From IMG/VR virus record IMGVR_UViG_3300025098_000203, positions 1 to 29,376 of that record: a stretch of 29,376 nt of DNA, one strand, 5' to 3'. The position numbers were made by a program, and so were the translations under genes. Source of the DNA: a virus. The notes under the pieces were generated by a model. That model was not told where the DNA came from and made no database searches. It saw only the letters and a program-made list of their open reading frames with translations. Shown piece by piece: positions 5,450-27,701 of this stretch (position 1 is the stretch's first letter; each line of letters opens with the position of its first letter).

Positions 5450-5506
5450 TTTGTTAAATAAAGATTATTCAAAAAAACTTAAATAATGTTTTGTTAATTA
5501 AATATT
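5431..5506 (+). repeat. Two imperfect direct repeats, period 40 bases
   Basis: Copy 1 (5431-5466) and copy 2 (5471-5506) both begin AAAAAAACTTAA and both contain a TTTGTTAA core 19 bases in. I count about 29 identities over 36 positions. Copy 1 covers the last codons and stop of the MazG-like gene. Copy 2 supplies the -33 TTTG of the promoter at 5491-5520. Confidence 0.6.
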
Positions 5507-5520
5507 AATAAGTAGCTTTG
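5491..5520 (+). promoter_or_regulatory. Host-type Bacteroidetes promoter TTG-N19-TAGCTTTG
   Basis: TTG at 5491-5493 (in a TTTTG), 19 bases, then TAGCTTTG at 5513-5520. Both boxes and the spacing fit the Bacteroidetes primary sigma consensus (TTG-N17-23-TANNTTTG). Transcription would start near 5527, giving a leader of about 8 bases before ATG 5535. It probably drives 5535-8537. Confidence 0.8.
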
Positions 5521-8467: not shown

Positions 8468-8537
8468 AGCAATAACTATATTTTACCTAACTGCAATATT
8501 AGCTTTAGTAATAGCATTGTTGTTTAACAAAGAATAG
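8460..8537 (+). CDS. Single-span membrane microprotein (25 aa)
   Basis: ATG 8460 overlaps the end of the DnaA-like gene by 8 bases and encodes MFEAITIFYLTAILALVIAL followed by LFNKE. Nearly the whole product is one membrane helix with a charged C-terminal end. It is the last gene before the late region, and its final codons contain the AACAAA half of the late promoter element. Real translation is not proven, but length, composition and coupling favour it over chance. Confidence 0.45.
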   Translation: MFEAITIFYLTAILALVIALLFNKE

Positions 8538-8555
8538 TTTTTTTTATTGTATAAT
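8526..8555 (+). promoter_or_regulatory. Candidate late promoter 1 (before terminase)
   Basis: AACAAA (8526-8531), 13 bases, TATTG (8545-8549), then TATAAT. It is the first of six copies with identical spacing. ATG of the small terminase candidate is at 8564. Confidence 0.65.
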
Positions 8556-8563
8556 TATTAATA

Positions 8564-8821
8564 ATGTTTTTTAATTCTATGGATGGTAGAAGAAATAACG
8601 GAGGTCACAAGACCGCAGGTAGAAAGTCTAAGGCAGATGAAGTAAACCTTATAGAAAAACTTTCTCCATTAGAAGATGCAGCTTACATAGCATTAAAGGA
8701 TGGAGTGGAAAGAGGGGACTTTAAATTTGTGCAACTGTTCTATAACTATTACGCAGGTAAGCCAAGAGAAACCAAAGACATTACTATCAACGAGGACTTA
8801 CCTTTGTTTATGGAGGATTAG
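8564..8821 (+). CDS. Putative terminase small subunit
   Basis: 85 residues, located immediately before the large terminase. The N-terminus (GRRNNGGHKTAGRKSKADE) is Gly/Arg/Lys-rich, and KLSPLEDAAYIALKDGVERG with FKFVQLFYNYYAGKPRE forms a helical pair followed by an acidic tail (LPLFMED). This layout is common in short small terminases of Bacteroidetes phages, which bind packaging sites and stimulate TerL. Assignment is by position and general resemblance. The start could be ATG 8564 or the in-frame ATG 8579. The late element at 8526-8555 lies before both. Confidence 0.6.
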   Translation: MFFNSMDGRRNNGGHKTAGRKSKADEVNLIEKLSPLEDAAYIALKDGVERGDFKFVQLFYNYYAGKPRETKDITINEDLPLFMED

Positions 8822-8851
8822 GGATAACCACAACCCTAACCTGCATTTTGT

Positions 8852-10018
8852 ATGCGAGTAAAGAAAACTATTGCATTTCATAAGCTAAGAAAACTACAGA
8901 GTAGGATACGAATAGTTAAGGGTGGCACAAGTGCATCTAAGACTATATCAATACTTTGTTTGCTAATAGACTATGCCATTAAAAACGAAGGCAAAGAGAT
9001 TAGCGTAGTATCTGAAAGTATACCACACCTTCGTAGAGGTGCTTTAAAGGACTTCTTAGGCATCTTAAAGGGTCTTAACAGGTATGAAGATAGCCAATAC
9101 AATAAAAGCACGTTAAAGTACACTTTTACAAACGGAAGCTACATAGAGTTTTTTTCAACTGACCAGCCCTTAAAATTGAGAGGTGCAAGACGCACAGAAC
9201 TATATATCAACGAATGTAATAATGTTCCCTTTGATGCTTACACACAATTAGCAGTTAGAACATCAGGGACAATATGGTTAGACTACAACCCATCAAGTTT
9301 ATTTTGGGTGGACAAAGAACTAATAGGTAAAGAAGATACAGACTACATTACACTTACCTACAAAGACAACGATGCGTTACCTGAAACCATAATAAAGGAA
9401 ATAGAGAAAGCAAGAGATAAGGCAAAGACATCTACCTACTGGTCTAATTGGTGGAGGGTTTACGGTTTAGGAGAAACTGGTTCTTTAGAAGGTGTGTGTA
9501 TTCCTGATTGGAAAGAGATAGACACCGTACCAAACGAAGCAAGGCTATTAGCATATGGTATGGACTTTGGATATACAGACCCCACCACAATCATAGGATT
9601 ATACAAATGGAACGAAGCCTACATAGCTGATGAAGTATTCTATAAGTCTAATACGGTTCTAAGGGATGTAAGCTTGTTTCTAAGGCACAATAATATAAAA
9701 GACAACATAATTGCTGACCAAGCAGAACCTAAGTCCATAGAAACGCTTAGAAGGGATGGGCATAATATCTACCCCTGTACAAAAGGTAGGGATAGTGTAA
9801 ACTTTGGAATCAACCTAATAAACCAAAACGAAATATACGTTACAAGTAAAAGCAGGAATCTAAAACGAGAACTACAAGGATATGTATGGGCAAAAGATAA
9901 AGACGGTAACACGCTACCAAAACCAACAGGAGAACATCCTGACTGCATAGATGCCTTTAGATATGTACTAACAGATACATTAGAAAACTCACATAGGGGG
10001 CAATACTTTGTGTATTAA
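8852..10018 (+). CDS. terL: Terminase large subunit
   Basis: 388 residues with both TerL domains. In the ATPase domain, Walker A is KGGTSASKT (23-31) and Walker B is LYINEC with catalytic Glu121. In the RNase H-like nuclease domain, the acidic residues are in GMDFGYTDP (Asp238), IIADQAEP (Asp289) and HPDCIDAFRY (Asp364/Asp367). It translocates DNA into the prohead and cuts concatemers. The length is slightly short for the Terminase_3/6 families but every motif is present. It is separated from the small subunit by 30 bases that include a weak TAGGG/CCCTA hairpin with no T run. Confidence 0.95.
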   Translation: MRVKKTIAFHKLRKLQSRIRIVKGGTSASKTISILCLLIDYAIKNEGKEISVVSESIPHLRRGALKDFLGILKGLNRYEDSQYNKSTLKYTFTNGSYIEFFSTDQPLKLRGARRTELYINECNNVPFDAYTQLAVRTSGTIWLDYNPSSLFWVDKELIGKEDTDYITLTYKDNDALPETIIKEIEKARDKAKTSTYWSNWWRVYGLGETGSLEGVCIPDWKEIDTVPNEARLLAYGMDFGYTDPTTIIGLYKWNEAYIADEVFYKSNTVLRDVSLFLRHNNIKDNIIADQAEPKSIETLRRDGHNIYPCTKGRDSVNFGINLINQNEIYVTSKSRNLKRELQGYVWAKDKDGNTLPKPTGEHPDCIDAFRYVLTDTLENSHRGQYFVY

Positions 10019-10035
10019 AATAAATTGTTTATTAT

Positions 10036-10065
10036 TTGTTAATTAAAAAAAAGGTTATATATTTA
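10036..10065 (+). promoter_or_regulatory. Host-type promoter TTG-N19-TATATTTA
   Basis: TTG (10036-10038, within TTTG), 19 bases, then TATATTTA (10058-10065), one mismatch from TANNTTTG. The geometry equals that of the promoter at 5491. ATG follows at 10086. It is a host-type promoter inside the late region. Confidence 0.7.
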
Positions 10066-10085
10066 CATCATAAAACAAAAAAACA

Positions 10086-10238
10086 ATGAAAGATTACATT
10101 ATTATTAAAAAAGAAATTTGTGCTAAACAAAACAGAAAGCACATTAAAAGAGCAGTAAGAGATATTGCAATACTTGGGCTTGCATCCTACGCAGCTATAT
10201 TTGCATTTGTAGAAATATTGTTTTTCATATGGCGTTAG
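10086..10238 (+). CDS. Single-span membrane protein (50 aa), possible moron
   Basis: ATG 10086 gives MKDYIIIKKEICAKQNRKHI then a basic stretch (KRAVRD) and one membrane helix at about 27-48, ending FFIWR. The positive N-terminus should stay in the cytoplasm. It has its own host-type promoter and is followed by a second small gene (10-base overlap) and a terminator, so it can be expressed independently of the late genes. Short phage membrane proteins with this arrangement often alter host physiology or exclude other phages. That role is inferred. Confidence 0.6.
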   Translation: MKDYIIIKKEICAKQNRKHIKRAVRDIAILGLASYAAIFAFVEILFFIWR

Positions 10239-10465
10239 ACAATGATTTCTTTAGACCATACCTACTTAAGAAGTGGTGCTGGGATAATGGATTCTTTGTA
10301 GTTATAAAGCCTATTACAAAAGGTGGTTATAAGTCAAAAGTAAAAATACATCTTGTAATACAGAAAAACACACAAGTAGGAAAAGAAGAATACGCACAGA
10401 ACTCGAAAGAGTTAGAAAACAAAATAGAAGAATTGTACAAGTATATGTACGAAACCTATAGATAG
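10229..10465 (+). CDS. Hypothetical protein (78 aa), second gene of the small cassette
   Basis: The sequence starts MALDNDFFRPYLLKKWCWDN, continues with beta-like strands (GFFVVIKPI, YKSKVKIHLVIQ) and ends in a charged helix (SKELENKIEELYKYMYETYR). This looks like a small alpha/beta protein, with no family recognised. It overlaps the membrane protein gene by 10 bases and is followed by a terminator at 10491, so it should be made together with it. Confidence 0.6.
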   Translation: MALDNDFFRPYLLKKWCWDNGFFVVIKPITKGGYKSKVKIHLVIQKNTQVGKEEYAQNSKELENKIEELYKYMYETYR

Positions 10466-10490
10466 ATTTTCATTTGGTTTGTTTAGGATT

Positions 10491-10520
10491 AGAGGGCAGA
10501 GATGTCCTCTTTTCTTTTTA
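10491..10520 (+). terminator. Terminator after the small cassette
   Basis: AGAGGGCA pairs with TGTCCTCT (one G-U pair) around loop GAGA, followed by a T-rich run. It separates the cassette from the tail genes. Confidence 0.82.
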
Positions 10521-10522
10521 TA

Positions 10523-10550
10523 CATATTTGTTGTATTTTTATTGTATTAA
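10523..10550 (+). promoter_or_regulatory. Weak late promoter-like element before the tail module
   Basis: TATTG at 10540-10544 followed by TATTAATA, with CATA at the position where the other copies have CAAA. The 3' half fits the late element and the AACAAA half does not. ATG is at 10560. Confidence 0.3.
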
Positions 10551-10559
10551 TATACGATT

Positions 10560-11222
10560 ATGAAAATAGACATATACATACCTGAAAAGCTATCTGATAT
10601 AACATTAGAACAGTATCAGAAGTTTGAAAAGCTGAATACAGTAGACAACCAAAATAGTAACTTCTTACTACACAAAATGGTTGAGATATTTTGTAGGCTT
10701 GATTTAAAAGACATAGCAAGAATTAAATACCAATACGTTAATAGCATAGTGTCTGACCTAAATAATATGTTTAACGTAAAGACAGAACTAATACCTACAT
10801 TTACTTTAAAGGGTGTAGAGTACGGATTTATACCAAAGTTAGATGACATTACCTTAGGGGAGTACATAGACCTTGATAATAATATATCAGACTGGGAAAC
10901 AATGCACAAAGCTATGGCAGTACTTTACAGACCAGTTACACTTAAAAAGGGAGATAGATACCAAATAGAAGAATACACTGCAAAGGAAGATACGGACGTG
11001 TTTAAGGACACGCCTTTAGATGTTGTTATGGGTTGCTTGGTTTTTTTTTACAGTTTAAACAACGAGTTGTTACAAATTACCCTGAAATATTTAGCGAAAG
11101 AGATGAAGGAGAATCTGACTATTCAGCAACGTCAAGCTTTGGAAGAAAGTGGGGTTGGTATCAATCAATCTATGGCTTGGCTAAAGGGGATGTTACCCAA
11201 TTCGACAACATTACTAAACTAA
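10560..11222 (+). CDS. Tail assembly chaperone, short form (gpG-like)
   Basis: 220 residues. Features typical of this phage family are ITLEQYQKFEKLN (14-26), EYGFIPKLDDITLGEYIDLD (85-104), AVLYRPV and the VFFYSLNNELL segment near 161-171. The last two thirds of its 3' end overlap another frame, and a perfect slippery heptamer lies at 11042-11048, the arrangement of lambda G/GT. The chaperones coat the tape measure and recruit tube subunits. The gene is first in the tail module, behind a terminator and a weak late element, and lies about 5 kb before the tape measure gene rather than next to it. Confidence 0.7.
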   Translation: MKIDIYIPEKLSDITLEQYQKFEKLNTVDNQNSNFLLHKMVEIFCRLDLKDIARIKYQYVNSIVSDLNNMFNVKTELIPTFTLKGVEYGFIPKLDDITLGEYIDLDNNISDWETMHKAMAVLYRPVTLKKGDRYQIEEYTAKEDTDVFKDTPLDVVMGCLVFFYSLNNELLQITLKYLAKEMKENLTIQQRQALEESGVGINQSMAWLKGMLPNSTTLLN

Positions 11223-11302
11223 ATATGCACAAGTCATTTATGTATTTAGCCTTTGAAAAAGAAAAGACAGAATTAGAAAAATCAATGATTAAGAAAAGAT
11301 GA
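11033..11302 (+). CDS. Frameshifted C-terminal extension of the chaperone (gpT-like)
   Basis: This frame is -1 relative to the chaperone and carries a conserved-looking domain: SSFGRKWGWYQSIYGLAKGD then FDNITKLNMHKSFMYLAFEKEK. Its nominal ATG at 11033 has no special context. The useful product is the fusion made by slipping at 11042-11048: 163 chaperone codons followed by 84 residues read from 11048, about 247 residues in total. The alternative, an independent 89-residue protein, is less likely because its first 30 residues are just the shifted reading of the chaperone. The stop at 11300-11302 overlaps the next gene by 4 bases. Confidence 0.7.
   Translation: MLGFFLQFKQRVVTNYPEIFSERDEGESDYSATSSFGRKWGWYQSIYGLAKGDVTQFDNITKLNMHKSFMYLAFEKEKTELEKSMIKKR
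11042..11071 (+). other. Programmed -1 frameshift site: T TTT TTT plus hairpin
   Basis: In the chaperone frame the codons are GTT TTT TTT TAC, giving the ideal slippery heptamer T TTT TTT (11042-11048). Nine bases downstream a small hairpin AACAA/TTGTT with loop CGAG spans 11058-11071. Slipping by -1 leads straight into the open frame ending at 11302. The hairpin is weak (five A/T-rich pairs). Confidence 0.75.
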
Positions 11303-11754
11303 AAGGATTTTACGAAGTAACAGACAAACTAAAAACACTACTAAATGCAGAGCCATTTGTAAATACAGTTACCTATGGAAGTATTGACGATGTGGATTTA
11401 GACAAGCAAAGTATATTTCCTTTGTCGCATATTATAGTGAACAATGCAGTAGTAGGTACTAAGACCACAACCTTTAGTATTTCGGTTCTTGCAATGGACA
11501 TAGTAGATATATCTAATGATGAGGTTGCAGATACTTTTGTAGGAAACGATAACGAACAAGACGTATTAAATACACAACTTGCATTACTTACAAGGGTAAT
11601 AAACGAACTACAAAGGGGGGATAGCTACACAGACAAATACCAAGTGCAAGAAGATGTTACTTGTGAGCCATTTATAGATAGGTTTGAGAATAAGTTAGCA
11701 GGATGGACTGCAACCTTTAGTGTTATGGTAGTAAATGATATGACAGTCTGCTAA
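11299..11754 (+). CDS. Putative tail terminator/completion protein
   Basis: 151 residues. The start (YEVTDKLKTLLNAEPFVNTV) is a helix typical of tail terminator-like proteins. A middle FSISVLAMDIVDIS strand, an NTQLALLTRVINELQRG helix and a final FENKLAGWTATFSVMVVND strand pair follow. The FEN-LAGW-F pattern and size match proteins in flavobacterial phages that end the tail tube or join it to the neck. The family is recognised from layout only. It overlaps the frameshift product by 4 bases and shares a stop/start base with the next gene. Confidence 0.55.
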   Translation: MKGFYEVTDKLKTLLNAEPFVNTVTYGSIDDVDLDKQSIFPLSHIIVNNAVVGTKTTTFSISVLAMDIVDISNDEVADTFVGNDNEQDVLNTQLALLTRVINELQRGDSYTDKYQVQEDVTCEPFIDRFENKLAGWTATFSVMVVNDMTVC

Positions 11755-12293
11755 TGACCTTTAAAGAAACAAAACAAGCCTTAGAGGCATTTGCTAAAAG
11801 TATTATAAAGCAGTCAAAGGGAAACCTTAAAAGGCATCGTAATAATAAGTTTATTACTGGTTCTACAAGTGGGGAGTTAGAAGGTAGCTTAGGATATGAA
11901 TTAGACGTTACATCAAACAACTTTAACGTTCGGTTTTATATGGCTGATTATGGTGCTTTTCAAGACTTAGGTGTAAAGGGTAGTAAATCAACTTATTCAA
12001 AAAGTAAGAACAGTCCTTTTAAGTATTCAGGTAGGTTTAAAAGCATACCACCACAGTCTTTAGATAAGTGGATGGTTAAGAAATCTATAAAAGGAATAAG
12101 AGATAAAGAGGGAAGGTTTATTGGTAGAAAGAGTTTAAGATATTTGTTAGCCAAAAGCATATACGAAAAAGGTTTAAGAGCAAGTTTCTTTTTTACTAAA
12201 CCGTTTGAAACAAATGTCATTAAACTGCCTGACGAATTAATAGAGAAGTTTGCATTAGATATTGAAGATTTTATAGCATTAAAAAATGATTAA
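11754..12293 (+). CDS. Putative HK97 gp10-like neck/tail completion protein
   Basis: 179 residues. The central segment VRFYMADYGAFQDLGVKGSK (58-77) matches the pattern of gp10-like completion proteins, in which a Y-x-x-(F/Y)-x-D-x-G-x-x-G turn is conserved, and helices flank it. The N-terminus is basic and helical. These proteins sit at the head-tail interface or tail terminus. Position directly after the putative tail terminator supports this. The start at 11754 is in a TAATG overlap, and the end overlaps the next gene by 8 bases. Confidence 0.6.
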   Translation: MTFKETKQALEAFAKSIIKQSKGNLKRHRNNKFITGSTSGELEGSLGYELDVTSNNFNVRFYMADYGAFQDLGVKGSKSTYSKSKNSPFKYSGRFKSIPPQSLDKWMVKKSIKGIRDKEGRFIGRKSLRYLLAKSIYEKGLRASFFFTKPFETNVIKLPDELIEKFALDIEDFIALKND

Positions 12294-12837
12294 AGCAAGA
12301 AGTCCATTCTTTATAGAACACCAAGAACCTGCTCCACCTGTAGTATTACAGAACTTTAGTTGTGCAGATACAGAGATTACAGGACTTTCAATAGCAGCAG
12401 ATGGTACTATTACAAATCCAACAGTAAGCGTAGGTACACTTCATAGTATAGAGCCAAGTAGTTTTAGTCCTGTACCTGTTGATACATTAAGAAACCTATA
12501 TGTGTTGGTTACATACGATTCGGCTAACTTTTTACCACCAAGTGGGACAAGCTATGAGGCTTATTGTTATAAACAAGTTTTACAACCAGCAACTATAGTA
12601 ATAGCCTATCAAAAAAATTATAGGGTTACAAACCATAGCACAACAGAAAACGCTTTAATAAATTACATAGCCTTTGATGGCAACCAAGAAATAACACATT
12701 TTTTAGCACCAAGCAGTACAGTAGATATATGCGTAGCCCCTGTAAATAATTATACATTTGGGTTTCCTACAGTTACAGGAGAAAACGTTACCTACTTTGA
12801 TTTGGTGCAAGGATGTTCAACCGATATATTAAGCTAA
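12286..12837 (+). CDS. Virion protein with one two-cysteine beta repeat
   Basis: 183 residues. It starts MIKARSPFFIEHQEP, an ARSPFFI-type opening that I associate with flavophage tail proteins. Residues 24-100 form a domain with C26...C94 and SIAADGTITNPTVSVGTL, then SSFSPVPVDTLRNLYV. The same pattern repeats four times in the protein at 19443-21011. The C-terminal 80 residues are a second beta-rich part (NYRVTNHSTTENALINYIAF). It is probably a surface or tail-associated protein. The domain looks Ig-like in strand pattern. A 16-codon ORF copying its N-terminus follows. Confidence 0.6.
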   Translation: MIKARSPFFIEHQEPAPPVVLQNFSCADTEITGLSIAADGTITNPTVSVGTLHSIEPSSFSPVPVDTLRNLYVLVTYDSANFLPPSGTSYEAYCYKQVLQPATIVIAYQKNYRVTNHSTTENALINYIAFDGNQEITHFLAPSSTVDICVAPVNNYTFGFPTVTGENVTYFDLVQGCSTDILS

Positions 12838-12838
12838 G

Positions 12839-12889
12839 ATGAGAATAAACGCAAGAAGTCCTTTTTTTATACAATTTAATAGCAACTAA
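12839..12889 (+). CDS. 16-codon micro-ORF repeating the ARSPFFI opening
   Basis: ATG 12839 to TAA 12889 encodes MRINARSPFFIQFNSN. It copies the N-terminus of the preceding protein (MIKARSPFFIE) and stops 2 bases before the next gene's ATG. In related phages, as far as I recall, ARSPFFI-type openings lead directly into proteins like the next one. So this may be the detached N-terminus of that gene or a leftover of a duplication. Translation is uncertain; it might also couple translation of its neighbours. Confidence 0.4.
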   Translation: MRINARSPFFIQFNSN

Positions 12890-12891
12890 TT

Positions 12892-13881
12892 ATGCCTGTA
12901 TTAGACCGAGCAGAATTGGAACTTTATATTTATGATGGTACGTCAGGTACTTATACTGATAGTGACCTAAGATATGAACTATCCAAAACGAGATTATCAA
13001 CCCAAGACAATATATTATTTGAAATAAGTGAATTAGTTAGGGACTACATAGATATAACTTTTAACAATGACTATTTAAGCACAACTAAATGGGTTACTGC
13101 TATTACAAGGTTGTACGATTCAGATGGAGAAGAATTTGCAAGTGGCAGCCCTGTTACAAATCATTACTTAGCAATGGATGGATATGGCTATTTTGAGGAT
13201 GGTATCAACCCTCAACTATCAGACAACCTACTAATAAGTAATAATACTCTTTACTTGCCTGAAAACACTGCAGGTAAATTACCAATATTTGCAGAGGGTG
13301 TAGGAAAGGTTACAATAGATAGCGTAGATACACAAATAACAGACGATGGTAATTCAAATCAAAAGATACAATATGTAACAATACCTGCGGATAGTAGCAC
13401 AATACAAGTTTACGATACAGACGATACAACCTTACTTAAAACGGTTACAGTAAACAACGTATGTGAGCCTAAGTTTACACCTTATAAGCTGACGTTTGTT
13501 AATAAATTTGGTGCGTATCAGGATATGTATTTCTTTAAGAAGTCTGTAGAGAGTATGGCTATTACAGATGAATTATACAAAGCAAATATTATAAACACAT
13601 CTACGTTAACTTATCCTACATACAAGGGGCAACAAGAAAGATACAATGTTAGTGCAACCAAAAAGGTTGTTTTAAATTCAGGCTTTGTAAATGAAGATTA
13701 TAATTTAGCCATAGAAGAATTACTACTAAGTGAAAACGTTTGGATTAGATGGGAGGGTAGAACATTACCAATAATTGTAAGAACCAAAGAACATACATAC
13801 AAAACATCACTAAACGACAAGCTAATAAACCACACTTTAGAATTTGAATTTGCATTTAGCAAGATTAACAATATCAAATAA
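12892..13881 (+). CDS. Tail/baseplate structural protein (329 aa)
   Basis: Beta-rich protein starting MPVLDRAELELYIYDGTSGT, with ILFEISELVRDYIDITF at about 43-59 and a C-terminal half (YKLTFVNKFGAYQDMYFFKK, then TLEFEFAFSKINNIK) that looks like a distal-tail domain. I recognise the general protein from flavobacterial phages, where it precedes the large tail protein found next here. A role in the tail tip is inferred from that order. Upstream, the micro-ORF with ARSPFFI probably once formed its N-terminus. The end shares a base with the next start (TAATG). Confidence 0.55.
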   Translation: MPVLDRAELELYIYDGTSGTYTDSDLRYELSKTRLSTQDNILFEISELVRDYIDITFNNDYLSTTKWVTAITRLYDSDGEEFASGSPVTNHYLAMDGYGYFEDGINPQLSDNLLISNNTLYLPENTAGKLPIFAEGVGKVTIDSVDTQITDDGNSNQKIQYVTIPADSSTIQVYDTDDTTLLKTVTVNNVCEPKFTPYKLTFVNKFGAYQDMYFFKKSVESMAITDELYKANIINTSTLTYPTYKGQQERYNVSATKKVVLNSGFVNEDYNLAIEELLLSENVWIRWEGRTLPIIVRTKEHTYKTSLNDKLINHTLEFEFAFSKINNIK

Positions 13882-16022: not shown

Positions 16023-16174
16023 TAGAAAATATATTAAACTTATTAGAAATAGCTAAACAACAAAAAATAACAGGGGAACATACTGCCATAGCATTAGGCA
16101 AAAACAAATATCCTGAAAGTGTAAGAGAAGCATACAACATATTTAAGACAGAGTTATGGCATACAAAAAGGTAG
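16019..16174 (+). CDS. Small protein (51 aa) between tail tip and tape measure
   Basis: ATG 16019 overlaps the previous stop (ATGA) and the frame ends at 16172-16174, 19 bases inside the tape measure gene. The product (MIENILNLLEIAKQQKITGE...) is helical with a small HTH-like centre (TAIALGKNKYPESVREAYN). The frame relation to the tape measure is -1, and the last sense codons read AAA AGG, so a low-level fusion is conceivable. It may be a chaperone-like helper, as inference. Without it this 136-base stretch would be empty, which favours a real gene. Confidence 0.55.
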   Translation: MIENILNLLEIAKQQKITGEHTAIALGKNKYPESVREAYNIFKTELWHTKR

Positions 16175-17778: not shown

Positions 17779-17809
17779 AACAAAAACTAAGAAATAATAT
17801 TGTTATAAT
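17779..17809 (+). promoter_or_regulatory. Candidate late promoter 2 (before the head protease)
   Basis: AACAAA (17779-17784), 13 bases, TATTG (17798-17802), TTATAAT, then ATG at 17810. The 31 bases from AACAAA to ATG imply an almost leaderless transcript if TATTG acts as the -10 region. Confidence 0.7.
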
Positions 17810-18826: not shown

Positions 18827-19446
18827 TGGGAAAAAATACTGCATATAGAGTACACGTTGAAGATGTTACCCAAGAGAAAGTAGATGGGGTAAACATAGAA
18901 AATGGTGCAATGTTACGCACAGATGACTACCTTTATATGGGTCATAATGACGAAAACGTTATAGTTTACCCACAGACAGGAGGTTTAAATTTAGGATGGA
19001 CAAGATACGATGACAAAGAATACACATCCTCTAATAAACTTGCGTTATCTGATGGTGTAGAGGTTGTGATGCCAAATAACGGTGGTTCGGTATATAGAAG
19101 TCATAGTAGTTTAGATTTTTACAATTCTACTACTCAAAAACTGTTAGGAGTAAATGAAAACGATGTATATGTAACAACTATTGTATTTAATGTATCAACA
19201 CCTAACGCAAACCAAACCCATATAGATTTAAGATTTGTAGGAGCAGGAGATGTAGAAAGAATACATAAAACAATGGGGTTCTACAAAGGGAACAATACTA
19301 CGCAAAACTTTCACGAAGTGTTTCAATATTATACAGACTCAACTTTTGTAAGTGATGGGGTAGATATTAAAATAATGTCGCACGGTGGTAGCGCAACGGT
19401 TTGGGATATTATATATTTTATACAAAGAACACAAAACGCAGGATGA
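18826..19446 (+). CDS. Beta-rich virion surface protein (206 aa)
   Basis: Starts MGKNTAYRVHVEDVTQEKVD. Near residues 30-47, TDDYLYMGHNDENVIVYP is typical of small phage appendage or decoration proteins, and the remainder alternates beta strands (VTTIVFNVSTP, THIDLRFVGAG, DVERIHKTMGFY). No signal peptide and no enzyme motif. The fold could be a jelly-roll. Position between protease and repeat protein in the head block suggests a capsid-surface or neck appendage. The next gene starts in its stop codon (ATGA at 19443). Confidence 0.5.
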   Translation: MGKNTAYRVHVEDVTQEKVDGVNIENGAMLRTDDYLYMGHNDENVIVYPQTGGLNLGWTRYDDKEYTSSNKLALSDGVEVVMPNNGGSVYRSHSSLDFYNSTTQKLLGVNENDVYVTTIVFNVSTPNANQTHIDLRFVGAGDVERIHKTMGFYKGNNTTQNFHEVFQYYTDSTFVSDGVDIKIMSHGGSATVWDIIYFIQRTQNAG

Positions 19447-21011
19447 GATATAATAAGGTAAAACCACCAGTACCACAAGACGATAGAAGGGGGTGCTTAT
19501 GCTGGGATACTAACACTTATTCAAGAGAATGTTGTGATGGAGAGTATCAGTCGCAGGGGATAGGGAGTATTGTTGGAGATGGATTGCCTTCATTAGAATG
19601 TAGCCTTATAACCTTGTCAGGTTTTGAAGTTGCACAAGATGGAACGGTAACAATACCAAGTACCGACATAGGAACTATTACACAAACAAGTCCTTCGTCT
19701 TTTAGTATTGTTGATGTAGATACCGAAAGAACACTAACGGTAACAATAGAAGCACCAAGCGACTATAGAAACGTTGGACAAACAATAGAATGTACCACAA
19801 CTGCAACACAGGTATTAACACCTACGCTTTCCTGTAGTGATATTACATTATCAGGATTCGCAGTAGCAGAAGACGGTACAATCACATTACCAACAGCGGA
19901 CATAGGCACAATATCTTCTACAAGTCCTGCATCATTTAGTAGGGTAAACGTAGATACTACACAAACATTAACGGTAAACATAACAGTACCAAGTGGGTAT
20001 TACAACGTAGGAGATACTTTAGTGTGTTCTACAACTGTAGTACAAAGTGCAAGTCAAACGTTAGCGTGTGTGGATATAACAATTAGCGGTTTTGCAGTAG
20101 ATGAAAACGGAGCGATTACACAACCTACAATAGACATAGGTACATTTACAAGCAGTCCTGCTTCATTTGCCACAGTTTCAGTTGATACATTACAAACACT
20201 TACATTAGACATCACAGTACCTGCAGGATATTATAACACAGGAGATATTTTAGTATGTACCACAACCGCTACACAACCTGCTTACAATGTATTTGATTGT
20301 ACAGACGTTACCATAAGCGGTTTCCTTGTATATGCGAGTGGTAGATATAATTCAGCAGCTATATCGGTAAGTGCTGGAACTATCGATAGTATGACACCTG
20401 CAAGTTTTGGAACTGTTACAACAGAAACTACAAGAACATTATCGGTAGATATTACTGTACCTGCTGGATATTCTAATTCAGGGCAAACTGTTACTTGTAC
20501 TACAACTTACTCACAAATTCCAATATTCTATTTTGACCAAATAACACCAGCAGTAGGGAATTATGTTGCGGTAGAGCCGATAATAAATTCAGGTACTAAT
20601 ACATACGCATTTACTGTGTATGCCAATGACCCTGTTTCAGGCAATGCAAACTCATTAGCTTTAATGAATCAGTTAGGCAATCAGATAGCAGGACAAGGTA
20701 CTCAAGCAGGTTCAACATTTTCTTTAGGCGATATAAGAATATCTTTTTATGATTCATCAGATGTTTTATTAGCACAATATACATCTTGTTGTGGTTTATT
20801 TGGTACTTTTAGTTATACTACACCTGACAATTTAAGTAGTGTGCCACCAACACCTTATAGCGGTAATTCTGCAAGTTGGACAAGTTATAAAATGGTATTT
20901 ACTAATATATCAGGTACAAGCGGTACTGCAGCATCAAGTCCAAATCAAGAAATGATTATAGACAACGGAAACGATCAAGGTTACTATTGGACTATTGAAG
21001 ATTTAAGTTAA
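19443..21011 (+). CDS. Repeat-containing surface protein (522 aa)
   Basis: I start at ATG 19443, which overlaps the previous stop, rather than at an upstream in-frame ATG (19401) inside the previous gene. Residues 17-33 (RGCLCWDTNTYSRECCDG) contain four cysteines and are followed by SQGIGSI, a block found in other flavobacterial phage structural proteins. Residues 51-358 are four tandem repeats of 77-78 residues, each with a Cys near the start and another about 64 residues later. Residues 360-522 form a unique beta-rich end with two adjacent cysteines. It looks like a fibrous adhesive protein on capsid or neck. Receptor or polysaccharide binding is inferred. Confidence 0.65.
   Translation: MRYNKVKPPVPQDDRRGCLCWDTNTYSRECCDGEYQSQGIGSIVGDGLPSLECSLITLSGFEVAQDGTVTIPSTDIGTITQTSPSSFSIVDVDTERTLTVTIEAPSDYRNVGQTIECTTTATQVLTPTLSCSDITLSGFAVAEDGTITLPTADIGTISSTSPASFSRVNVDTTQTLTVNITVPSGYYNVGDTLVCSTTVVQSASQTLACVDITISGFAVDENGAITQPTIDIGTFTSSPASFATVSVDTLQTLTLDITVPAGYYNTGDILVCTTTATQPAYNVFDCTDVTISGFLVYASGRYNSAAISVSAGTIDSMTPASFGTVTTETTRTLSVDITVPAGYSNSGQTVTCTTTYSQIPIFYFDQITPAVGNYVAVEPIINSGTNTYAFTVYANDPVSGNANSLALMNQLGNQIAGQGTQAGSTFSLGDIRISFYDSSDVLLAQYTSCCGLFGTFSYTTPDNLSSVPPTPYSGNSASWTSYKMVFTNISGTSGTAASSPNQEMIIDNGNDQGYYWTIEDLS
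19593..20516 (+). repeat. Four tandem 77-78-residue protein repeats
   Basis: Units start at residues 51, 129, 207 and 284 of the protein (LECSLITLSGF, LSCSDITLSGF, LACVDITISGF, FDCTDVTISGF). Each runs through DIGT, SPASF, T-L-x-V-x-I-T-V-P-x-G-Y and a closing C-T-T. The DNA copies have diverged, so the duplication is old or under diversifying drift. Confidence 0.85.
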
Positions 21012-21017
21012 AAATAC

Positions 21018-21046
21018 AACAAAACGTTAAATAATTTATTATATAT
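21018..21046 (+). promoter_or_regulatory. Candidate late promoter 3 (variant TATTA)
   Basis: AACAAA (21018-21023), 13 bases, TATTA (21037-21041), then TATATAA. Spacing is identical to the other copies and one base of the second box differs. ATG is at 21059. Confidence 0.55.
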
Positions 21047-21058
21047 AAAATACACATT

Positions 21059-21442
21059 ATGAAACCAAGCGTAAATAAGATACTTACCAAACTGTCTAAA
21101 GAGAAAGTACTTGAAAAAGTAGAATTAGGCTTGTATGATGATATAAAACAATTAGATAAAAAGGATGCAAATTTAGAGGCAAGATTTGCTGCTACAGGTT
21201 CTAAAATAGAAGCAGAATGTAAAAGTTTTTTAAAAGATTTAAATAGTTACTTGCAAAATAATGACGCAAAAAGAAAAGCTATTAGGAAAATATTAGAAGA
21301 AAAAACAAAAATAGAAAAAGAATTAGGGGTTACAGTAAGAATACCAAGCACAATTAAAGATGAAGATGGTAGTGCTATATCACAAATAAAAACTATGATT
21401 AGTACAGTACAAAGATTTATTTCAGATTTAAAAAGTATATAA
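21059..21442 (+). CDS. Helical coiled-coil protein (127 aa)
   Basis: A Lys/Glu-rich all-helical protein (ILTKLSKEKVLEKVELGLYD; AIRKILEEKTKIEKELGV) with one break near GVTVRIPSTIKDEDGS and a final helix. No recognised family. It has its own late-type promoter and lies directly before the scaffold gene, so it is likely to be a virion or assembly protein made in its own amount. An internal or minor scaffold role is possible but unproven. Confidence 0.6.
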   Translation: MKPSVNKILTKLSKEKVLEKVELGLYDDIKQLDKKDANLEARFAATGSKIEAECKSFLKDLNSYLQNNDAKRKAIRKILEEKTKIEKELGVTVRIPSTIKDEDGSAISQIKTMISTVQRFISDLKSI

Positions 21443-21448
21443 AAACCT

Positions 21449-21480
21449 AACAAATAGAATATTAATTTATTGATATATAT
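21449..21480 (+). promoter_or_regulatory. Candidate late promoter 4 (before scaffold and capsid)
   Basis: AACAAA (21449-21454), 13 bases, TATTG (21468-21472), ATATATAT, then ATG 21481. Confidence 0.7.
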
Positions 21481-22077
21481 ATGAAAGCAACAGATATGTT
21501 AAACAAAGTAAAAGAACTTGTTGGGGTGGAAGCATCCGAAGAAGTAAAATTAGCACAGGCTACTTTGGAAAACGGTACTGTTATAGAAAGTGAAGATTTC
21601 GCACAAGGTAGTGAGGTTTTTATTGTAACAGACGATGAAAAGGTAGCATTACCTGTAGGCGATTACACTTTAGAGGATGGAGAACAACTAAAAGTAGAAG
21701 AAGAAGGCATTATTGCATCAATAGGTGCAGCCGAAGAACCTACTGAAGAAGCATCTGAAGAAGAAGTGGAAGCTGCAGAAGAAGAAATGGCTTATGCAAC
21801 TAAAGAAGAACTTGCAGAGGTAAAATCTATGATTGAGGACATTAAAGCTATGATTGAAAACAAAGCAGAAATGTCGGAAGAAGTAGAATCTACAGAGGAA
21901 GTTGAAAAAGAAGAACTTTCTAAAGTGGAAGAAGTTGAGGAAAAGGTAGAACTTGAAAAAGTAACACACAACCCTGAAGCTGAAGCACAAAAGGAATTAA
22001 AACTTTATGGACAGAAAAGACAACCTACAACTATGGACAGAGTCTTTTCAAGAATATCGAATATTAAAAATAAATAA
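21481..22077 (+). CDS. Putative capsid scaffolding protein
   Basis: 198 residues, strongly acidic in the middle (residues 80-160 consist largely of Glu, with EEPTEEASEEEVEAAEEE). The N-terminus (MLNKVKELVGVEASEE, then LENGTVIESEDF and VFIVTDDEKVALPVGDY) is a compact beta-hairpin domain. A coiled coil follows at 105-125. The basic end (TTMDRVFSRISNIKNK) could bind the capsid protein, as the C-termini of scaffolds do. Location just before the capsid gene, with its own late promoter, fits a scaffold removed by the XkdF-type protease. Confidence 0.7.
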   Translation: MKATDMLNKVKELVGVEASEEVKLAQATLENGTVIESEDFAQGSEVFIVTDDEKVALPVGDYTLEDGEQLKVEEEGIIASIGAAEEPTEEASEEEVEAAEEEMAYATKEELAEVKSMIEDIKAMIENKAEMSEEVESTEEVEKEELSKVEEVEEKVELEKVTHNPEAEAQKELKLYGQKRQPTTMDRVFSRISNIKNK

Positions 22078-22088
22078 ATTTAAAAAAA

Positions 22089-23057
22089 ATGCCAACAACA
22101 ACAACACAAAACGCAAGTGTAGCTTACAACGGAGAGTTCGCAGGAGAGTATATCTCCGCAGCGCTTCTTTCTGCACCTACACTCGAAAAAGGTGGTATTA
22201 CCATCAAGCCTAACGTAAAGTATCAACACGTTATTAAAACAGTAAGCACCGATGACATCGTAAAAGATGCAAGTTGTGATTTTACTGCGACATCTACAAT
22301 TACTTTGGATGAGAGAACACTTACACCTGAATTTCAGCAAGTGAATTTGCAACTATGTAAGTCAGATTTTCAAGATGATTTTGAAGCTATTTCAATGGGA
22401 TATTCTGCTCACGATAGCCTACCTTCTTCTTTCTCTGATTTCTTGATTGCACACGTTGCTGCTAAAGTAGCACAAAGAACTGAAACTTCTATTTGGACTG
22501 GTTCTACTGCAACAAGTGGACAGTTTGATGGAATTTCAACTAAAATTGCTTTAGATGCTAACTTACCTACTGCAAATGAAATTGCTGGTACTACAGTTAC
22601 TGCTGGAAACGTAATTGACGAACTTGGTTCTATCGTAGATGCTATTCCTTCTACCATTTATGGAAAAGAAGATTTAAATATCTATGTTTCGCAAAACATT
22701 GCAAGAGCCTATGTAAGAGCATTAGGTGGATTTGGAAGTATCACTTCTAACGCAGGTGCAAATGGTGTAGACAACAAAGGTACACTATGGTACGGAATGG
22801 GACAAGATTTAGCTTTTGATGGTGTAAAACTATTTGTTGCTAACGGTCTTGCTGACAACACCGCTATTGCTGCTGAAAAAAGCAACCTTTACTTTGGTAC
22901 TGGTCTTTTGTCAGATACTCAAGAAATAAAAGTATTGGATATGGCTGACCTTGATGGTTCTCAAAACGTAAGAGTTATTATGAGATTTACCGCAGGGGTT
23001 GAGTATGGGATTGTTGATGACATCGTAACTTACGGTATCGCTAACTCTGCCAACTAA
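22089..23057 (+). CDS. Major capsid protein, HK97 fold
   Basis: 322 residues. The N-terminal arm (residues 1-25) is Thr/Ala-rich. The E-loop region with GGITIKPNVKYQHVIKTV and the P-domain with LCKSDFQDDFEAIS, followed by a long helix (FSDFLIAHVAAKVAQRTET) ending in IWTGS, fit the HK97 fold. The A-domain includes DLNIYVSQNIARAYVRAL and NLYFGTGLLSD. Codons are less A-ending here than in neighbours, as expected for a highly expressed gene. It lies 11 bases after the scaffold and ends 22 bases before a strong terminator. No separate promoter is seen, so it shares the one at 21449. Confidence 0.88.
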   Translation: MPTTTTQNASVAYNGEFAGEYISAALLSAPTLEKGGITIKPNVKYQHVIKTVSTDDIVKDASCDFTATSTITLDERTLTPEFQQVNLQLCKSDFQDDFEAISMGYSAHDSLPSSFSDFLIAHVAAKVAQRTETSIWTGSTATSGQFDGISTKIALDANLPTANEIAGTTVTAGNVIDELGSIVDAIPSTIYGKEDLNIYVSQNIARAYVRALGGFGSITSNAGANGVDNKGTLWYGMGQDLAFDGVKLFVANGLADNTAIAAEKSNLYFGTGLLSDTQEIKVLDMADLDGSQNVRVIMRFTAGVEYGIVDDIVTYGIANSAN

Positions 23058-23079
23058 GAATTAATTAACTAACAATAAG

Positions 23080-23113
23080 GGGTAGGTGGTTTTATATCTG
23101 CCTACCCTTTTTT
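23080..23113 (+). terminator. Strong terminator after the capsid gene
   Basis: A perfect seven-pair stem GGGTAGG/CCTACCC with a 14-base loop is followed by six T. The next gene starts 13 bases later without a recognisable promoter, so some read-through is probably used. Confidence 0.9.
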
Positions 23114-23126
23114 AATATAAAAAAAA

Positions 23127-23687
23127 ATGAGTTGTACTTTAAATCTTGGAAGAAAAGAACCTTGCAAGGATGTAGTAGGCGGTATTAAAAATGTCTATTT
23201 TGTTGATTTTGGGGATATTTCTCCAACATACGATTCAACAGATACAGATGTTGTAGATAGCGTTGGTTCATCCGTTGCAAGTTATAAATACGAACTCAAA
23301 GGAAACAGTAGTTTTGAACAAGCCATAACTTCTTCAAGAGAGAATGGCACTACCTTCTTTGAGCAGACTTTGAATCTTACCCTTAAAAAACTAACTAAGG
23401 AAGATAACAAAGAATTAAAATTATTAGCCTATGGTAGACCACACGTTGTCGTAGAAGATTACAATGCTAACCTATTTATAATGGGATTAGAAAACGGAGC
23501 GGAAGTATCAGGTGGTACTATTGTTACTGGAGGTTCTATGGGAGATTTAAGTGGATATACACTTTCATTTTCTGCACAAGAAACTGAACCTGCAAACTTT
23601 ATTGGAAAAACTGCAGTAGATGAAACAGTAAGCACTACATTAACTAATGCTGGTTTTTCATCTCCAACAGAAGGAACAAACGTTTAA
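23127..23687 (+). CDS. Putative major tail tube protein
   Basis: 186 residues. The start (SCTLNLGRKEPCKDVVGGIK) followed by VYFVDFGDIS, then FEQAITSSRENGTTFFEQTL and LTLKKLTKEDNKELKLLAYG, and finally GDLSGYTLSFSAQETEPAN, match the tail tube proteins of flavobacterial phages. Those proteins form hexameric rings around the tape measure. Placement between capsid and portal is unusual, because tube genes normally precede the chaperone genes. It is bounded by two terminators (23080 and 23709), so its level is controlled independently of its neighbours. Confidence 0.68.
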   Translation: MSCTLNLGRKEPCKDVVGGIKNVYFVDFGDISPTYDSTDTDVVDSVGSSVASYKYELKGNSSFEQAITSSRENGTTFFEQTLNLTLKKLTKEDNKELKLLAYGRPHVVVEDYNANLFIMGLENGAEVSGGTIVTGGSMGDLSGYTLSFSAQETEPANFIGKTAVDETVSTTLTNAGFSSPTEGTNV

Positions 23688-23708
23688 TAGTTAGAAATAT
23701 TTATAATT

Positions 23709-23737
23709 AAGGGGTGGCGTTAGCTGCCCTTTTTTTT
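23709..23737 (+). terminator. Terminator after the tail tube gene
   Basis: AAGGGGTGGC pairs with GCTGCCCTT (one bulge, two wobble pairs) around GTTA, followed by a run of eight T. It ends 12 bases before late promoter 5. Confidence 0.8.
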
Positions 23738-23748
23738 GCTTTATAAAT

Positions 23749-23779
23749 AACAAAATTTAAGTTTTTTTATTGTATATAT
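23749..23779 (+). promoter_or_regulatory. Candidate late promoter 5 (before the portal unit)
   Basis: AACAAA (23749-23754), 13 bases, TATTG (23768-23772), TATATAT, then ATG 23780. It directly follows a terminator, so it must supply transcription of the portal unit. Confidence 0.72.
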
Positions 23780-24121
23780 ATGATAGTTTTACAAGAAAGT
23801 GCATCTGCACAAAACTTAGATTTTATACCAAGAAGTTTTATAATCGGTAACACCTATAACGTTACCATAGTAAACGAACAAACTAATACGGAGGTTTACA
23901 ATCAAGACGTAGATACTATAACAGAAAATTTGTACTACAATAGGCTTAATGCTATCTTTGATGTAAAGCAAGATAATTTTTATATGGTTACTGTTAAATC
24001 AGGAAGCGATGTAATATTTAAAGATAAAGTATTCTGCACCAATCAGGCTATTACAGACTTTACTGTAAACGATAGCCAATATACAGAGCAGGAAACAACA
24101 AATGAATTTATATTCTTATAA
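23780..24121 (+). CDS. Small beta-rich virion protein (113 aa)
   Basis: MIVLQESASAQNLDFIPRSF opens a strand-rich protein with repeated NVTIVNEQTNTEVYN and FYMVTVKSGSDVIFKDKV segments. I recognise the MI(I/V)LQES opening from flavobacterial phage structural genes, without a known function. This conserved N-terminus supports ATG 23780 as the real start, which matters because it sits only 7 bases behind TATTG of the promoter. It shares one base with the portal start (TAATG). A minor head or neck role is inferred. Confidence 0.55.
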   Translation: MIVLQESASAQNLDFIPRSFIIGNTYNVTIVNEQTNTEVYNQDVDTITENLYYNRLNAIFDVKQDNFYMVTVKSGSDVIFKDKVFCTNQAITDFTVNDSQYTEQETTNEFIFL

Positions 24122-25860
24122 TGGAAAACGTACACATAGTTAGTTTATCATCTTACAATCGACCTCAAATAAAAGAGGACAAGAAAAGGGATTGGGTAGA
24201 GTATGGCGATAATAATGATTTTTACACTTACCTAATAGACCTTTTTATAGAATCGACTACCAACAACGCTATTATAAACGGAGTTAGTCAGATGATATAC
24301 GGTAAAGGGTTAGATGCTTTAGATAGTAGCACTAAAACAGATGAATACGCAGCACTTAGGTCTATCTTTCACGATTCGTGCCTTAGAAAAATAAGTTTCG
24401 ACCTTAAACTATTAGGGGAGGCAAGTTTTCAGGTATTATACAATGACAAACAAGTAGCAAGAGCCGAACACTTCCCAAGACAAACACTAAGAGCAGAAAA
24501 ATGTAATGACAATGGAGAGATAGAAGCATATTACTATTTTCACGACTGGTCTAAAATAAAGCCAAACGATAAGCCTAAGAGAATTGCAGCCTTTGGATTT
24601 GGCAACGGAACAGAATCTGAAATAAAAATAATTAAAAGATACTTGTCAGGGTACGATTACTACTGCCCACCTGACTATATGGGTGGCATAGCCTATGCAG
24701 AACTTGAAAGCGAAGTGTCAGACTTCCTAATTAATGATGTACAGAACGGATTTAGTGGTACTAAGGTTGTAAACTTTAACAACGGAATACCTGATAGAGA
24801 GCAACAGTTACAAGTCAAGTCAGACGTAATGCGTAAACTAACTGGCGCAAGAGGCGAAAAAGTAATTATAGCCTTTAATAACAATGCAGAAAGCAAAACT
24901 ACTATAGACGATGTGCCACTTACTGATGCACCACAACATTATGAATACCTTTCTACGGAAAGTGTAAACAAGTTAATGGTTGCACATAGGATTACATCCC
25001 CTTTACTTTTAGGTATTAGAGATGGCAACAATGGACTTGGCAATAATGCAGACGAAATTAAAACTGCTTCTTTGTTATTTAACAACACAACCATTAAGCC
25101 TTACCAAGATTTAATCGTTGAAGCAATAGACGATATATTAGCGGTAAACGGCATTAGCCTTAAATTGTATTTTAAGACACTACAACCGCTTGAATTTATA
25201 GAAACCGACAATGCCATTACAGACGAAGCAAGAGAGGAAGAAACAGGCGTTAAAATGGCTAAGGAAGAACCATCTTTTGATGATGACAAGATGTTTGACC
25301 TATTAGACCAATTTGGCGAAGATGAAAACCTTGACGATTGGGAACTTGTAGATGAAAGAGAGGTAGACTATGACCAAGAGGAAGCTTTAGATAAAATGAT
25401 AGGTTTGGCAAGTACAGGTAGTGCAAGACCAAAAGCAAATAGCGACCAAGATGGAGAGAATGACGAAGGTGTACAGTTTAAAGTAAGATACCAATACGCA
25501 CCATTAAGAACACAAGCCAACAGTAGGGAGTTTTGCAAGAAAATGGTAAATACTAAAAAAATATACCGTAAGGAGGACATAATGCAAATGAGCCAATTAG
25601 CAGTAAATGCAGGATGGGGACTAAATGGTGCAGATACTTACGATATATGGCTATATAAAGGCGGTGGTGCTTGTCATCATTTTTGGATGCGTAAGACATA
25701 TATGGCAAAAGCAGAGGGTGTAAAGCCTGATGTTGGAAACCCTAACGCAGAGGTAAGCGTAAACCAAGCTAAAAAAGAAGGTTTTAAACCTGAAACAAAC
25801 GATAAGAAAGTGGCTATGCGACCAAAAGATATGCCCAATCAAGGATTTGTAAACAAATAA
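24121..25860 (+). CDS. Portal protein with Cys/His C-terminal extension
   Basis: 579 residues. Residues 1-360 form a portal core: a wing with YGDNNDFYTYLIDLFIEST, KLLGEASFQVLYN at 96-108, a clip/stem with GIAYAELESEVSDFLINDVQ, and a crown end with MVAHRITSPLLLGIRDG and helices 310-345. The portal is the dodecameric DNA entry ring to which TerL docks. A 210-residue tail follows. It starts with an acidic linker (385-425), then a compact domain at 451-535 (FKVRYQYAPL, FCKKMV, KIYRKEDIMQMS, DTYDIWLYKGGGACHHFWMR) with Cys472 and C518-H519-H520 that could bind metal. I know this extension from other Bacteroidetes phages, where its role is not established. Confidence 0.8.
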   Translation: MENVHIVSLSSYNRPQIKEDKKRDWVEYGDNNDFYTYLIDLFIESTTNNAIINGVSQMIYGKGLDALDSSTKTDEYAALRSIFHDSCLRKISFDLKLLGEASFQVLYNDKQVARAEHFPRQTLRAEKCNDNGEIEAYYYFHDWSKIKPNDKPKRIAAFGFGNGTESEIKIIKRYLSGYDYYCPPDYMGGIAYAELESEVSDFLINDVQNGFSGTKVVNFNNGIPDREQQLQVKSDVMRKLTGARGEKVIIAFNNNAESKTTIDDVPLTDAPQHYEYLSTESVNKLMVAHRITSPLLLGIRDGNNGLGNNADEIKTASLLFNNTTIKPYQDLIVEAIDDILAVNGISLKLYFKTLQPLEFIETDNAITDEAREEETGVKMAKEEPSFDDDKMFDLLDQFGEDENLDDWELVDEREVDYDQEEALDKMIGLASTGSARPKANSDQDGENDEGVQFKVRYQYAPLRTQANSREFCKKMVNTKKIYRKEDIMQMSQLAVNAGWGLNGADTYDIWLYKGGGACHHFWMRKTYMAKAEGVKPDVGNPNAEVSVNQAKKEGFKPETNDKKVAMRPKDMPNQGFVNK

Positions 25861-25863
25861 GAA

Positions 25864-26367
25864 ATGGCAGAAGGATTATTTATAACACGGAAAGATTTAG
25901 TAAAGTTTACTTCTGTAAATGGCAACGTAGATAGTGATAAGTTTTTGCAGTACATAAAGATTGCACAAGACATACACATTAAAAACTACTTAGGCACAGA
26001 CTTATTTAACAAACTACAGGACGATATAGAAGCCAGTACACTCACAGGAGATTATTTAACACTTGTTACGGACTATGTAAAACCTATGCTTGTACATTGG
26101 GCAATGGTTGAGTATTTACCTTTTGCTGCCTATTCTATTGCAAACAAGGGAATATTTAAACATAGTAGCGAAAACGCTTCTAATATAGAAAAGGAAGAAA
26201 TAGACTTTTTAATAGAAAAAGAAAGAAACATAGCACAGTATTATACTGATAGATTTATAGATTATATGTCATTTAACGCAAGTGGTACTTTTCCTGAATA
26301 CTATACTAATAGCAACGATGACGTATATCCTGATAAAAACGCAAATTTCGAAGGATGGGTTTTGTAA
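25864..26367 (+). CDS. Head-tail connector, DUF6712/gp6-like
   Basis: 167 residues, all-helical. The opening FITRKDLVKFTSVNGNVDSD followed by FLQYIKIAQDIHIKNYLGTD and LFNKLQDDIEAS is the DUF6712 pattern. Another helix (TDYVKPMLVHWAMVEYLPF) and an acidic C-terminus follow. Proteins of this size and fold form the adaptor ring beneath the portal. It starts 4 bases after the portal stop. Its end overlaps a small gene by 13 bases. Confidence 0.75.
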   Translation: MAEGLFITRKDLVKFTSVNGNVDSDKFLQYIKIAQDIHIKNYLGTDLFNKLQDDIEASTLTGDYLTLVTDYVKPMLVHWAMVEYLPFAAYSIANKGIFKHSSENASNIEKEEIDFLIEKERNIAQYYTDRFIDYMSFNASGTFPEYYTNSNDDVYPDKNANFEGWVL

Positions 26368-26459
26368 GAAACGACTATAAACCAAAAGAGAAAAACGTAG
26401 AAAGGCTTAAAAGCTATCTGCAAAAGACATTTATAACAAAAACTAAAAAAAAGTATTGA
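26355..26459 (+). CDS. Small basic protein (34 aa) after the connector
   Basis: ATG 26355, inside the connector's last codons, gives MGFVRNDYKPKEKNVERLKS and ends KTKKKY. It is lysine-rich and helical. The stop TGA (26457-26459) overlaps the TATTG of late promoter 6, so gene end and promoter share bases. No family recognised. The overlap at both ends suggests that it is translated, and the charge suggests DNA or capsid contact, as inference. Confidence 0.5.
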   Translation: MGFVRNDYKPKEKNVERLKSYLQKTFITKTKKKY

Positions 26460-26465
26460 TATAAT
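26435..26465 (+). promoter_or_regulatory. Candidate late promoter 6 (before the tail accessory unit)
   Basis: AACAAA (26435-26440), 13 bases, TATTG (26454-26458), ATATAAT, then ATG 26466. From TATTG to ATG it differs from late promoter 2 only in the base after TATTG. Confidence 0.7.
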
Positions 26466-26696
26466 ATGGCTAACACAATAAACTGGGGCAAGATATATTG
26501 TTATACTGAATTTGGTAATGAAGATTCTACAGTAGCAGAGGCTATACCCCATTTTTCGTCTCCTGAATGTTTTTTAGGAGCGTTAGAAGGTGGTCAAACA
26601 GAAACATTAGCATTAACGGTAGATGATACACAATTATACAGAGTAGATTCTACAGACTTAACTGCTGACTTAACTTTAGTAACAATATTTAATTAA
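26466..26696 (+). CDS. Small virion-associated protein (76 aa)
   Basis: MANTINWGKIYCYTEFGNED begins with the NxxWGKIY pattern that I have seen at the start of small structural genes in flavobacterial phages. The rest is strand-rich and acidic (ETLALTVDDTQLYRVDSTDL). There is no signal sequence. It is the first gene behind late promoter 6 and precedes two fibre-related genes, so it probably belongs to the tail fibre region. Confidence 0.5.
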   Translation: MANTINWGKIYCYTEFGNEDSTVAEAIPHFSSPECFLGALEGGQTETLALTVDDTQLYRVDSTDLTADLTLVTIFN

Positions 26697-27699: not shown

Positions 27700-27701
27700 A
27701 T

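Follow-up and report, generated by a model that had tools for sequence, protein, structure and literature searches.

A bipartite candidate late promoter co-occurs with an ECF-type sigma factor gene in a group of marine and freshwater phages

INTRODUCTION

The late promoters of phage T4 consist of a single TATAAATA box, and their use requires the sliding clamp. Proteins gp55 of T4 and gp28/gp34 of SPO1 are alternative phage sigma factors that serve a temporal class of genes, late or middle (PMC9429907), and the locus described here appears to resemble them in this respect. It also appears to resemble phiEco32 and Salmonella phage 7-11, lytic phages in which a divergent sigma factor brings the host RNA polymerase to the promoters of structural genes, while the early genes are served by host promoters (PMC4331800). 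In flavobacteria, a CGT -10 box (motif SM6 of Flavobacterium psychrophilum) is linked to ECF sigma factors of the host (PMC9723704).

The DNA analysed here is a complete IMG/VR record, 29,376 bases long (hereafter the window), from a phage whose host is probably a member of the Bacteroidetes. An earlier note on this DNA had proposed that a six-copy element, AACAAA-N13-TATTG, is a phage late promoter. The proposal is supported by the strand and the intergenic position of the copies, the late genes that follow them, the -35/-10-like geometry of the two boxes, two upstream terminators and synteny. On sequence grounds we consider it likely (probability about 0.88) that the element serves as a late promoter, to which the host RNA polymerase is directed by an ECF-type sigma factor that the phage itself encodes. 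Phage sigma factors for late genes are already known; it is this sigma–promoter pair that is new, and the literature we covered (with few subscription papers) yielded no description of the element or of a late sigma factor in Bacteroidetes phages.

RESULTS

The element in the window

All genes of the window point in one direction, with an early/replication block up to about 8.5 kb (Table 1). The six copies that the earlier note had listed are all present where it had placed them (candidate late promoters 1 and 3–7), with a spacing of exactly 13 in 6/6 and with TATTG as the second box in five copies and TATTA in one. The pattern AACAAA-N13-TATT[G/A] thus has six copies in the window, all on the plus (coding) strand, whereas 100 dinucleotide shuffles gave 0.26 on average and never more than 2; on the reverse strand of the window there is no match to the TATTG form. 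Once two mismatches are allowed, the window contains 43 matches against 34 in the background, i.e. the background level, so the signal resides in the strict element. A weight matrix trained on other genomes, with the window excluded, gives the six sites scores of 16–31 and reveals a seventh, degenerate copy (candidate late promoter 2), which had been missed because its -35 box is TACATA. Sites resembling this copy (TTTATTG...ATG) are present in intergenic regions of G027–G029.

Some details of the earlier description had to be adjusted. Two of its copies were said to lie by a terminator or in a gap where transcription must restart; candidate late promoter 6 does lie behind a predicted terminator, but it is the only one of the six to do so, and the seventh copy also lies directly behind one. 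The gene after the first copy was taken as the terminase gene: the first ORF there encodes 85 aa and is in the terminase-small position, and the large terminase comes next. The element was also contrasted with host-type promoters of the early genes. It does lack the TAnnTTTG box. The hits of a strict scan for TTG-N18-22-TAHHTTTG did not coincide cleanly with the early region; one host-type promoter there was read by eye and compared with the published consensus (PMC9723704 and PMC6847099). Scans for Escherichia coli sigma-70 promoters gave a background level of matches (67 versus 70.6).

Table 1. Features of the window (coordinates are positions in the 29,376-base record)
Feature	Position	Strand	Remarks
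Candidate late promoter 1	8526..8549	+	AACAAA-N13-TATTG; predicted start about 8557; first gene at 8564
Candidate late promoter 2	10521..10544	+	TACATA-N13-TATTG, degenerate -35 box; gene start 10560; matrix score 23.5
Candidate late promoter 3	17779..17802	+	Protease ATG (17810) 7 nt after TATTG
Candidate late promoter 4	21018..21041	+	TATTA variant; coiled-coil gene start 21059
Candidate late promoter 5	21449..21472	+	Scaffold-position gene start 21481, 8 nt after TATTG
Candidate late promoter 6	23749..23772	+	ATG of 113-aa gene (23780) 7 nt after TATTG
Candidate late promoter 7	26435..26458	+	Gene at 26466, start 7 nt after TATTG
Terminator-like hairpin	10491..10510	+	Directly 5' of candidate late promoter 2
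Terminator-like hairpin	23709..23732	+	Directly 5' of candidate late promoter 6
ECF-type sigma factor gene, 181 aa	3595..4140	+	Profile matches and fold
Host sigma-A type promoter, TTG-N19-TAGCTTTG	5491..5520	+	Early region, before gene at 5535
Gene with SSPPCPSHSR motif	7268-7912		N-terminus (LNLYACLGGNRY) like DNA cytosine methyltransferases, by eye
Protein with a stand-alone DnaA C-terminal domain (origin-binding)	8066-8467		Just 5' of candidate late promoter 1; Bac_DnaA_C match, E 2.9e-12
Terminase large subunit	8852-10015		Follows 85-aa ORF in terminase-small position
Tape-measure-like protein gene			Between terminase and protease in the gene order
Protease, XkdF-like	start 17810		
536-aa protein	19401-21011		Several similar ~80-aa repeats 'SGFAVxxDGTIT...P.DIGT'; tail/adhesin repeat array in appearance
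Putative major capsid protein (capsid position)	start 22089		After scaffold-position gene
Portal	start 24121		After 113-aa gene
Open frame past the window end	27700-29376		LamG-like repeats recognised by eye, several copies; probable tail fibre or receptor-binding protein

Conservation of the element in related phages

Searching viral contigs for proteins related to the sigma-like protein or to the portal, we collected 161 loci (window included). AACAAA-N13-TATTG is found 188 times on the forward and three times on the reverse strand of these loci, as compared with 0–18 forward matches for each of the spacings 6–12 and 14–20; a reversed control pattern has nine and seven matches. The 146 distinct sites have the consensus tAACAAA-N12-T-TATTG-TATAAAT-ATG. 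A motif-free search of gene upstream regions (584 regions from 16 genomes) returned TAAC-N17-ATTG as its top gapped pair, with 32 occurrences against 1.4 expected (z 25.7), in 14/16 genomes.

At a threshold of 18, the matrix detects 111 forward and five reverse sites in 20 genomes, every related genome having three to seven. Intergenic DNA makes up 9.8% of the sequence, and 99 of the 111 sites are in it. The freshwater clade, used as a control for this matrix, contains one site. In the long genomes of clades A and B, with positions circularised from the sigma gene, strict sites recur at shared gene borders (not all of them occupied in each genome): before the genes for terminase, protease, scaffold/capsid and the 113-aa protein plus portal, and after the adaptor gene. 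In these clades none is located between the holin end and the sigma gene, and in clade A the early arc that contains the sigma gene has none. The syntenic conservation spans about 20 genomes.

Given the very high A/T content of the intergenic DNA, and a motif picked from a sequence already read, a chance or composition effect has to be considered. It is refuted by the counts, since the motif's specificity for spacing, strand and clade holds across hundreds of related sequences, and the probability of such an effect is negligible.

In the two clade D genomes (G043 and G044) motif-free and neutral-pattern searches gave no clear motif. A scan of bacterial genomes for integrated copies found none. 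It returned two distant sigma factors of hosts and a single phage-like contig, L221, from a 'Candidatus Thioglobus' assembly; this contig encodes a sigma factor that is 54% identical, and is probably a mis-binned phage contig.

An ECF-type sigma factor encoded in the early region

The earlier note had overlooked, besides the seventh copy, the sigma factor gene in the early region of the window, the change of the -10 box between clades and the ATG at the predicted start site. The product of the sigma gene matches phrog_1740 (RNA polymerase sigma factor) with an E-value of 1.7e-6. The NCBI model for ECF sigma-70 factors, TIGR02937, matches 41 of the 42 members of this protein family (best member E 1.7e-12); the window's member scores 40.4 bits, under the curated cut-off of 42.9, so we call it ECF-type and give it no named ECF group. 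The low score weakens the protein's name and leaves the reading of its function intact. The protein has region 2 followed by region 4 only and a length of 181 aa (about 150–200 aa are expected), and an EDIVQEM core in region 2 and a C-terminal helix-turn-helix are conserved across the 42 members. Other sequence searches added little: Pfam returned only a generic helix-turn-helix for the window sigma, and a PDB sequence search with it was uninformative.

The predicted structure points in the same direction. The AF2 model has a pLDDT of 80, and its best Foldseek matches in the PDB are SigL, SigH, SigE, AlgU and SigW, all ECF sigma factors. Region 4 of the model superposes on SigE bound to -35 DNA (2h27_D) with a TMt of 0.85 and an rmsd of 1.4; the whole-chain TM-scores are low (about 0.3), probably due to the uncertain linker between the two sigma domains in the model.

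Element and sigma factor occur together. Among contigs picked by the motif alone, the sigma factor gene is present in 10/10 of those that are 24 kb or longer, and the three picked contigs without it are all fragments under 20 kb. In four flavobacterial phages (FpV9, 11b, P12002L and phi18:1) we detected neither a match to the sigma nor the motif. In one contig (G052, the record of L234) the sigma profile matches a second time, at 30406-30621, over its region 4 portion only; this partial match is possibly a gene fragment or a paralogue.

The -10 box differs between clades

Sigma factors of the freshwater-type clade C are 41–49% identical, and TATTG is absent from this clade. When gene starts are scanned for AAC-N17-XXXX-N7-ATG, the most frequent box in clade A is ATTG (40 sites; next box, 8) and in clade C it is GTTA (23 sites; next box, 6); on the reverse strand no box stands out in this way. 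Both clades share the AAC box, the spacing and the distance of 7 nt to the ATG. A matrix for clade C finds 50 forward and no reverse sites in 11 genomes, 34 of them intergenic; the clade C sites are fewer and weaker than the TATTG-type sites. Apart from contig L015, the ATTG and GTTA types separate on the sigma tree. L015 belongs to clade A; its C label came from one C-type match, which we treated as chance, since such single matches are present in the window too. The co-variation of sigma and -10 box is a single deep split, and is therefore a matter of congruence rather than of many independent events; the clade-linked change supports, short of proof, that the sigma factor reads the box.

A related arrangement is found in a cultured phage. 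Among named phages, Nonlabens (Persicivirga) phage P12024S/L (genus Inhavirus) has the portal and the capsid-position protein nearest to those of the window (37% and 31% identical, respectively). BLAST of the window sigma against INPHARED phages gave no match; P12024S gp33, which carries a sigma-70 region 2 note in its record, was reached by profile only (36.8 bits to the family profile). This sigma is only about 23% identical, and a P12024L protein, 99% identical to gp33, weakly matches ECF models. Seven late genes of P12024S (gp01, gp05, gp08, gp35, gp41, gp44 and gp45) start with AAAAC-N17/18-GTTA-N6/7-ATG, with a C before GTTA (CGTTA), and P12024S and its relatives, with gp33-type sigmas, share AAC-N18-GTTA-N7-ATG. 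The -10 box of P12024S is CGTTA, and its spacer is one base longer. No promoter is annotated in the P12024S record.

Two other ways of reading the element bear on these data. The AACAAA box might be the activator site of another phage DNA-binding protein, with a host sigma factor acting at TATTG, and clades A and B have a conserved DnaA-C-like gene (Table 1), which in the window is located just 5' of the first copy. In clade C and in P12024S, however, no DnaA-C-like gene was detected, and both keep the AAC box with an almost unchanged geometry. AAC cores are usual in the -35 boxes of ECF promoters. Geometry and AAC core agree with a -35/-10 pair of the ECF kind, and the phage has a gene for an ECF-type sigma factor; we consider an activator site very improbable.

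Alternatively, the promoter could be read by a host sigma factor (ECF or primary), with the phage sigma serving some other purpose. Flavobacteria do have several ECF sigma factors, and one of their promoter classes has a CGT -10 box (PMC9723704), similar to the CGTTA of P12024S. But TAnnTTTG is absent from the element (97% of sites have an A in place of the first T of TTTG), the -10 box differs between the clades of the phage sigma while the remainder is unchanged, and the four flavobacterial phages that do not encode the sigma do not have the element either. Reading by a host sigma is therefore improbable, and a phage-encoded reader is favoured.

Position of the start codon

Of the 146 distinct sites, 97 have the ATG exactly 7 nt after TATTG and 16 have it 8 nt after (113/146 together). 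In clades A, B and C, the ATG that follows the element is the first codon of the protease gene and of the 113-aa gene; the N-termini of both proteins are conserved, and in most genomes neither gene has an earlier in-frame start. So regular a distance, together with the fact that A at -3 and -6 favours initiation in Flavobacterium (PMC6847099), could be taken to mean that the element is a translation-initiation signal beside the start codon and no promoter. However, the element begins about 31 nt before the ATG, and sites are found at operon starts and behind terminators, not at every gene. Moreover, the distance from the element to the ATG of the scaffold gene varies between phages (7, 8, 20 or 27–30 nt) and AACAAA-N13-TATTG keeps its spacing, which argues for a promoter and makes a translation signal extremely improbable.

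For a promoter, the predicted start is about 7–8 nt past TATTG, i.e. at the A of the ATG or 1–3 nt before it in most copies. If TATTGT occupies -12 to -7, the predicted start is the A of the ATG; if the G is at -5, as in the host box, the predicted leader is 3 nt. Most late mRNAs would probably be leaderless or nearly so, with predicted leaders of 0–3 nt, as judged from the letters of these sites. In Flavobacterium johnsoniae 87% of leaders are over 10 nt (PMC6847099), and in F. psychrophilum 5.5% of mRNAs are leaderless (PMC9723704).

DISCUSSION

From these features we infer which protein reads the element, when it does so and where transcripts would begin. The phage would make the ECF-type sigma factor from its early/middle gene block; the sigma would take the place of the host sigma on the host RNA polymerase and direct the polymerase to tAACAAA (-35-like) and, 13 nt further, TATTGT (-10-like). 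The putative target sites front each packaging, head and tail gene block, and transcription would restart at them behind terminators. Late genes far from any site may be transcribed by read-through or from host promoters.

We also lean, with less confidence, towards a broader proposal, in which the promoter is fused with the start codon: the ECF-type sigma would start transcription on the ATG, so that head and packaging mRNAs would be leaderless, in hosts that have few such mRNAs, while the -10 specificity of the sigma would drift between clades with the geometry and the ATG position nearly fixed. If true, this would provide orthogonal sigma–promoter pairs (with -10 boxes TATTG, GTTA and CGTTA) that could serve as switches in Bacteroidetes, where tools are few, together with a leaderless route to late translation. 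A further question is then by what means leaderless phage messages would be translated by ribosomes that make no use of Shine-Dalgarno sequences. For a large and mostly uncultured group of marine and freshwater phages, the analysis suggests a transcription scheme in which early genes would depend on host-type promoters and late genes on the phage's own ECF-type sigma factor. The same system in a cultured phage and host (P12024S and Nonlabens sp. IMCC12024) makes the scheme directly testable.

This scheme differs from those of T4 (gp55) and SPO1 (gp28/gp34), whose sigma factors belong to other lineages and use other promoters. In phiEco32 and 7-11, which are enterobacterial phages, the promoter motif is TAATGTATA and the phage also has an anti-sigma factor (PMC4331800), whereas the window's family has a bipartite AAC/TATTG pair with the ATG at the predicted start site. 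With the flavobacterial host ECF promoters (SM6) the phages share an ECF-type sigma factor, and the CGTTA of P12024S fits the CGT box; those promoters, however, belong to host regulons, and phage clades A and C have departed from CGT, to TATTG and GTTA, respectively.
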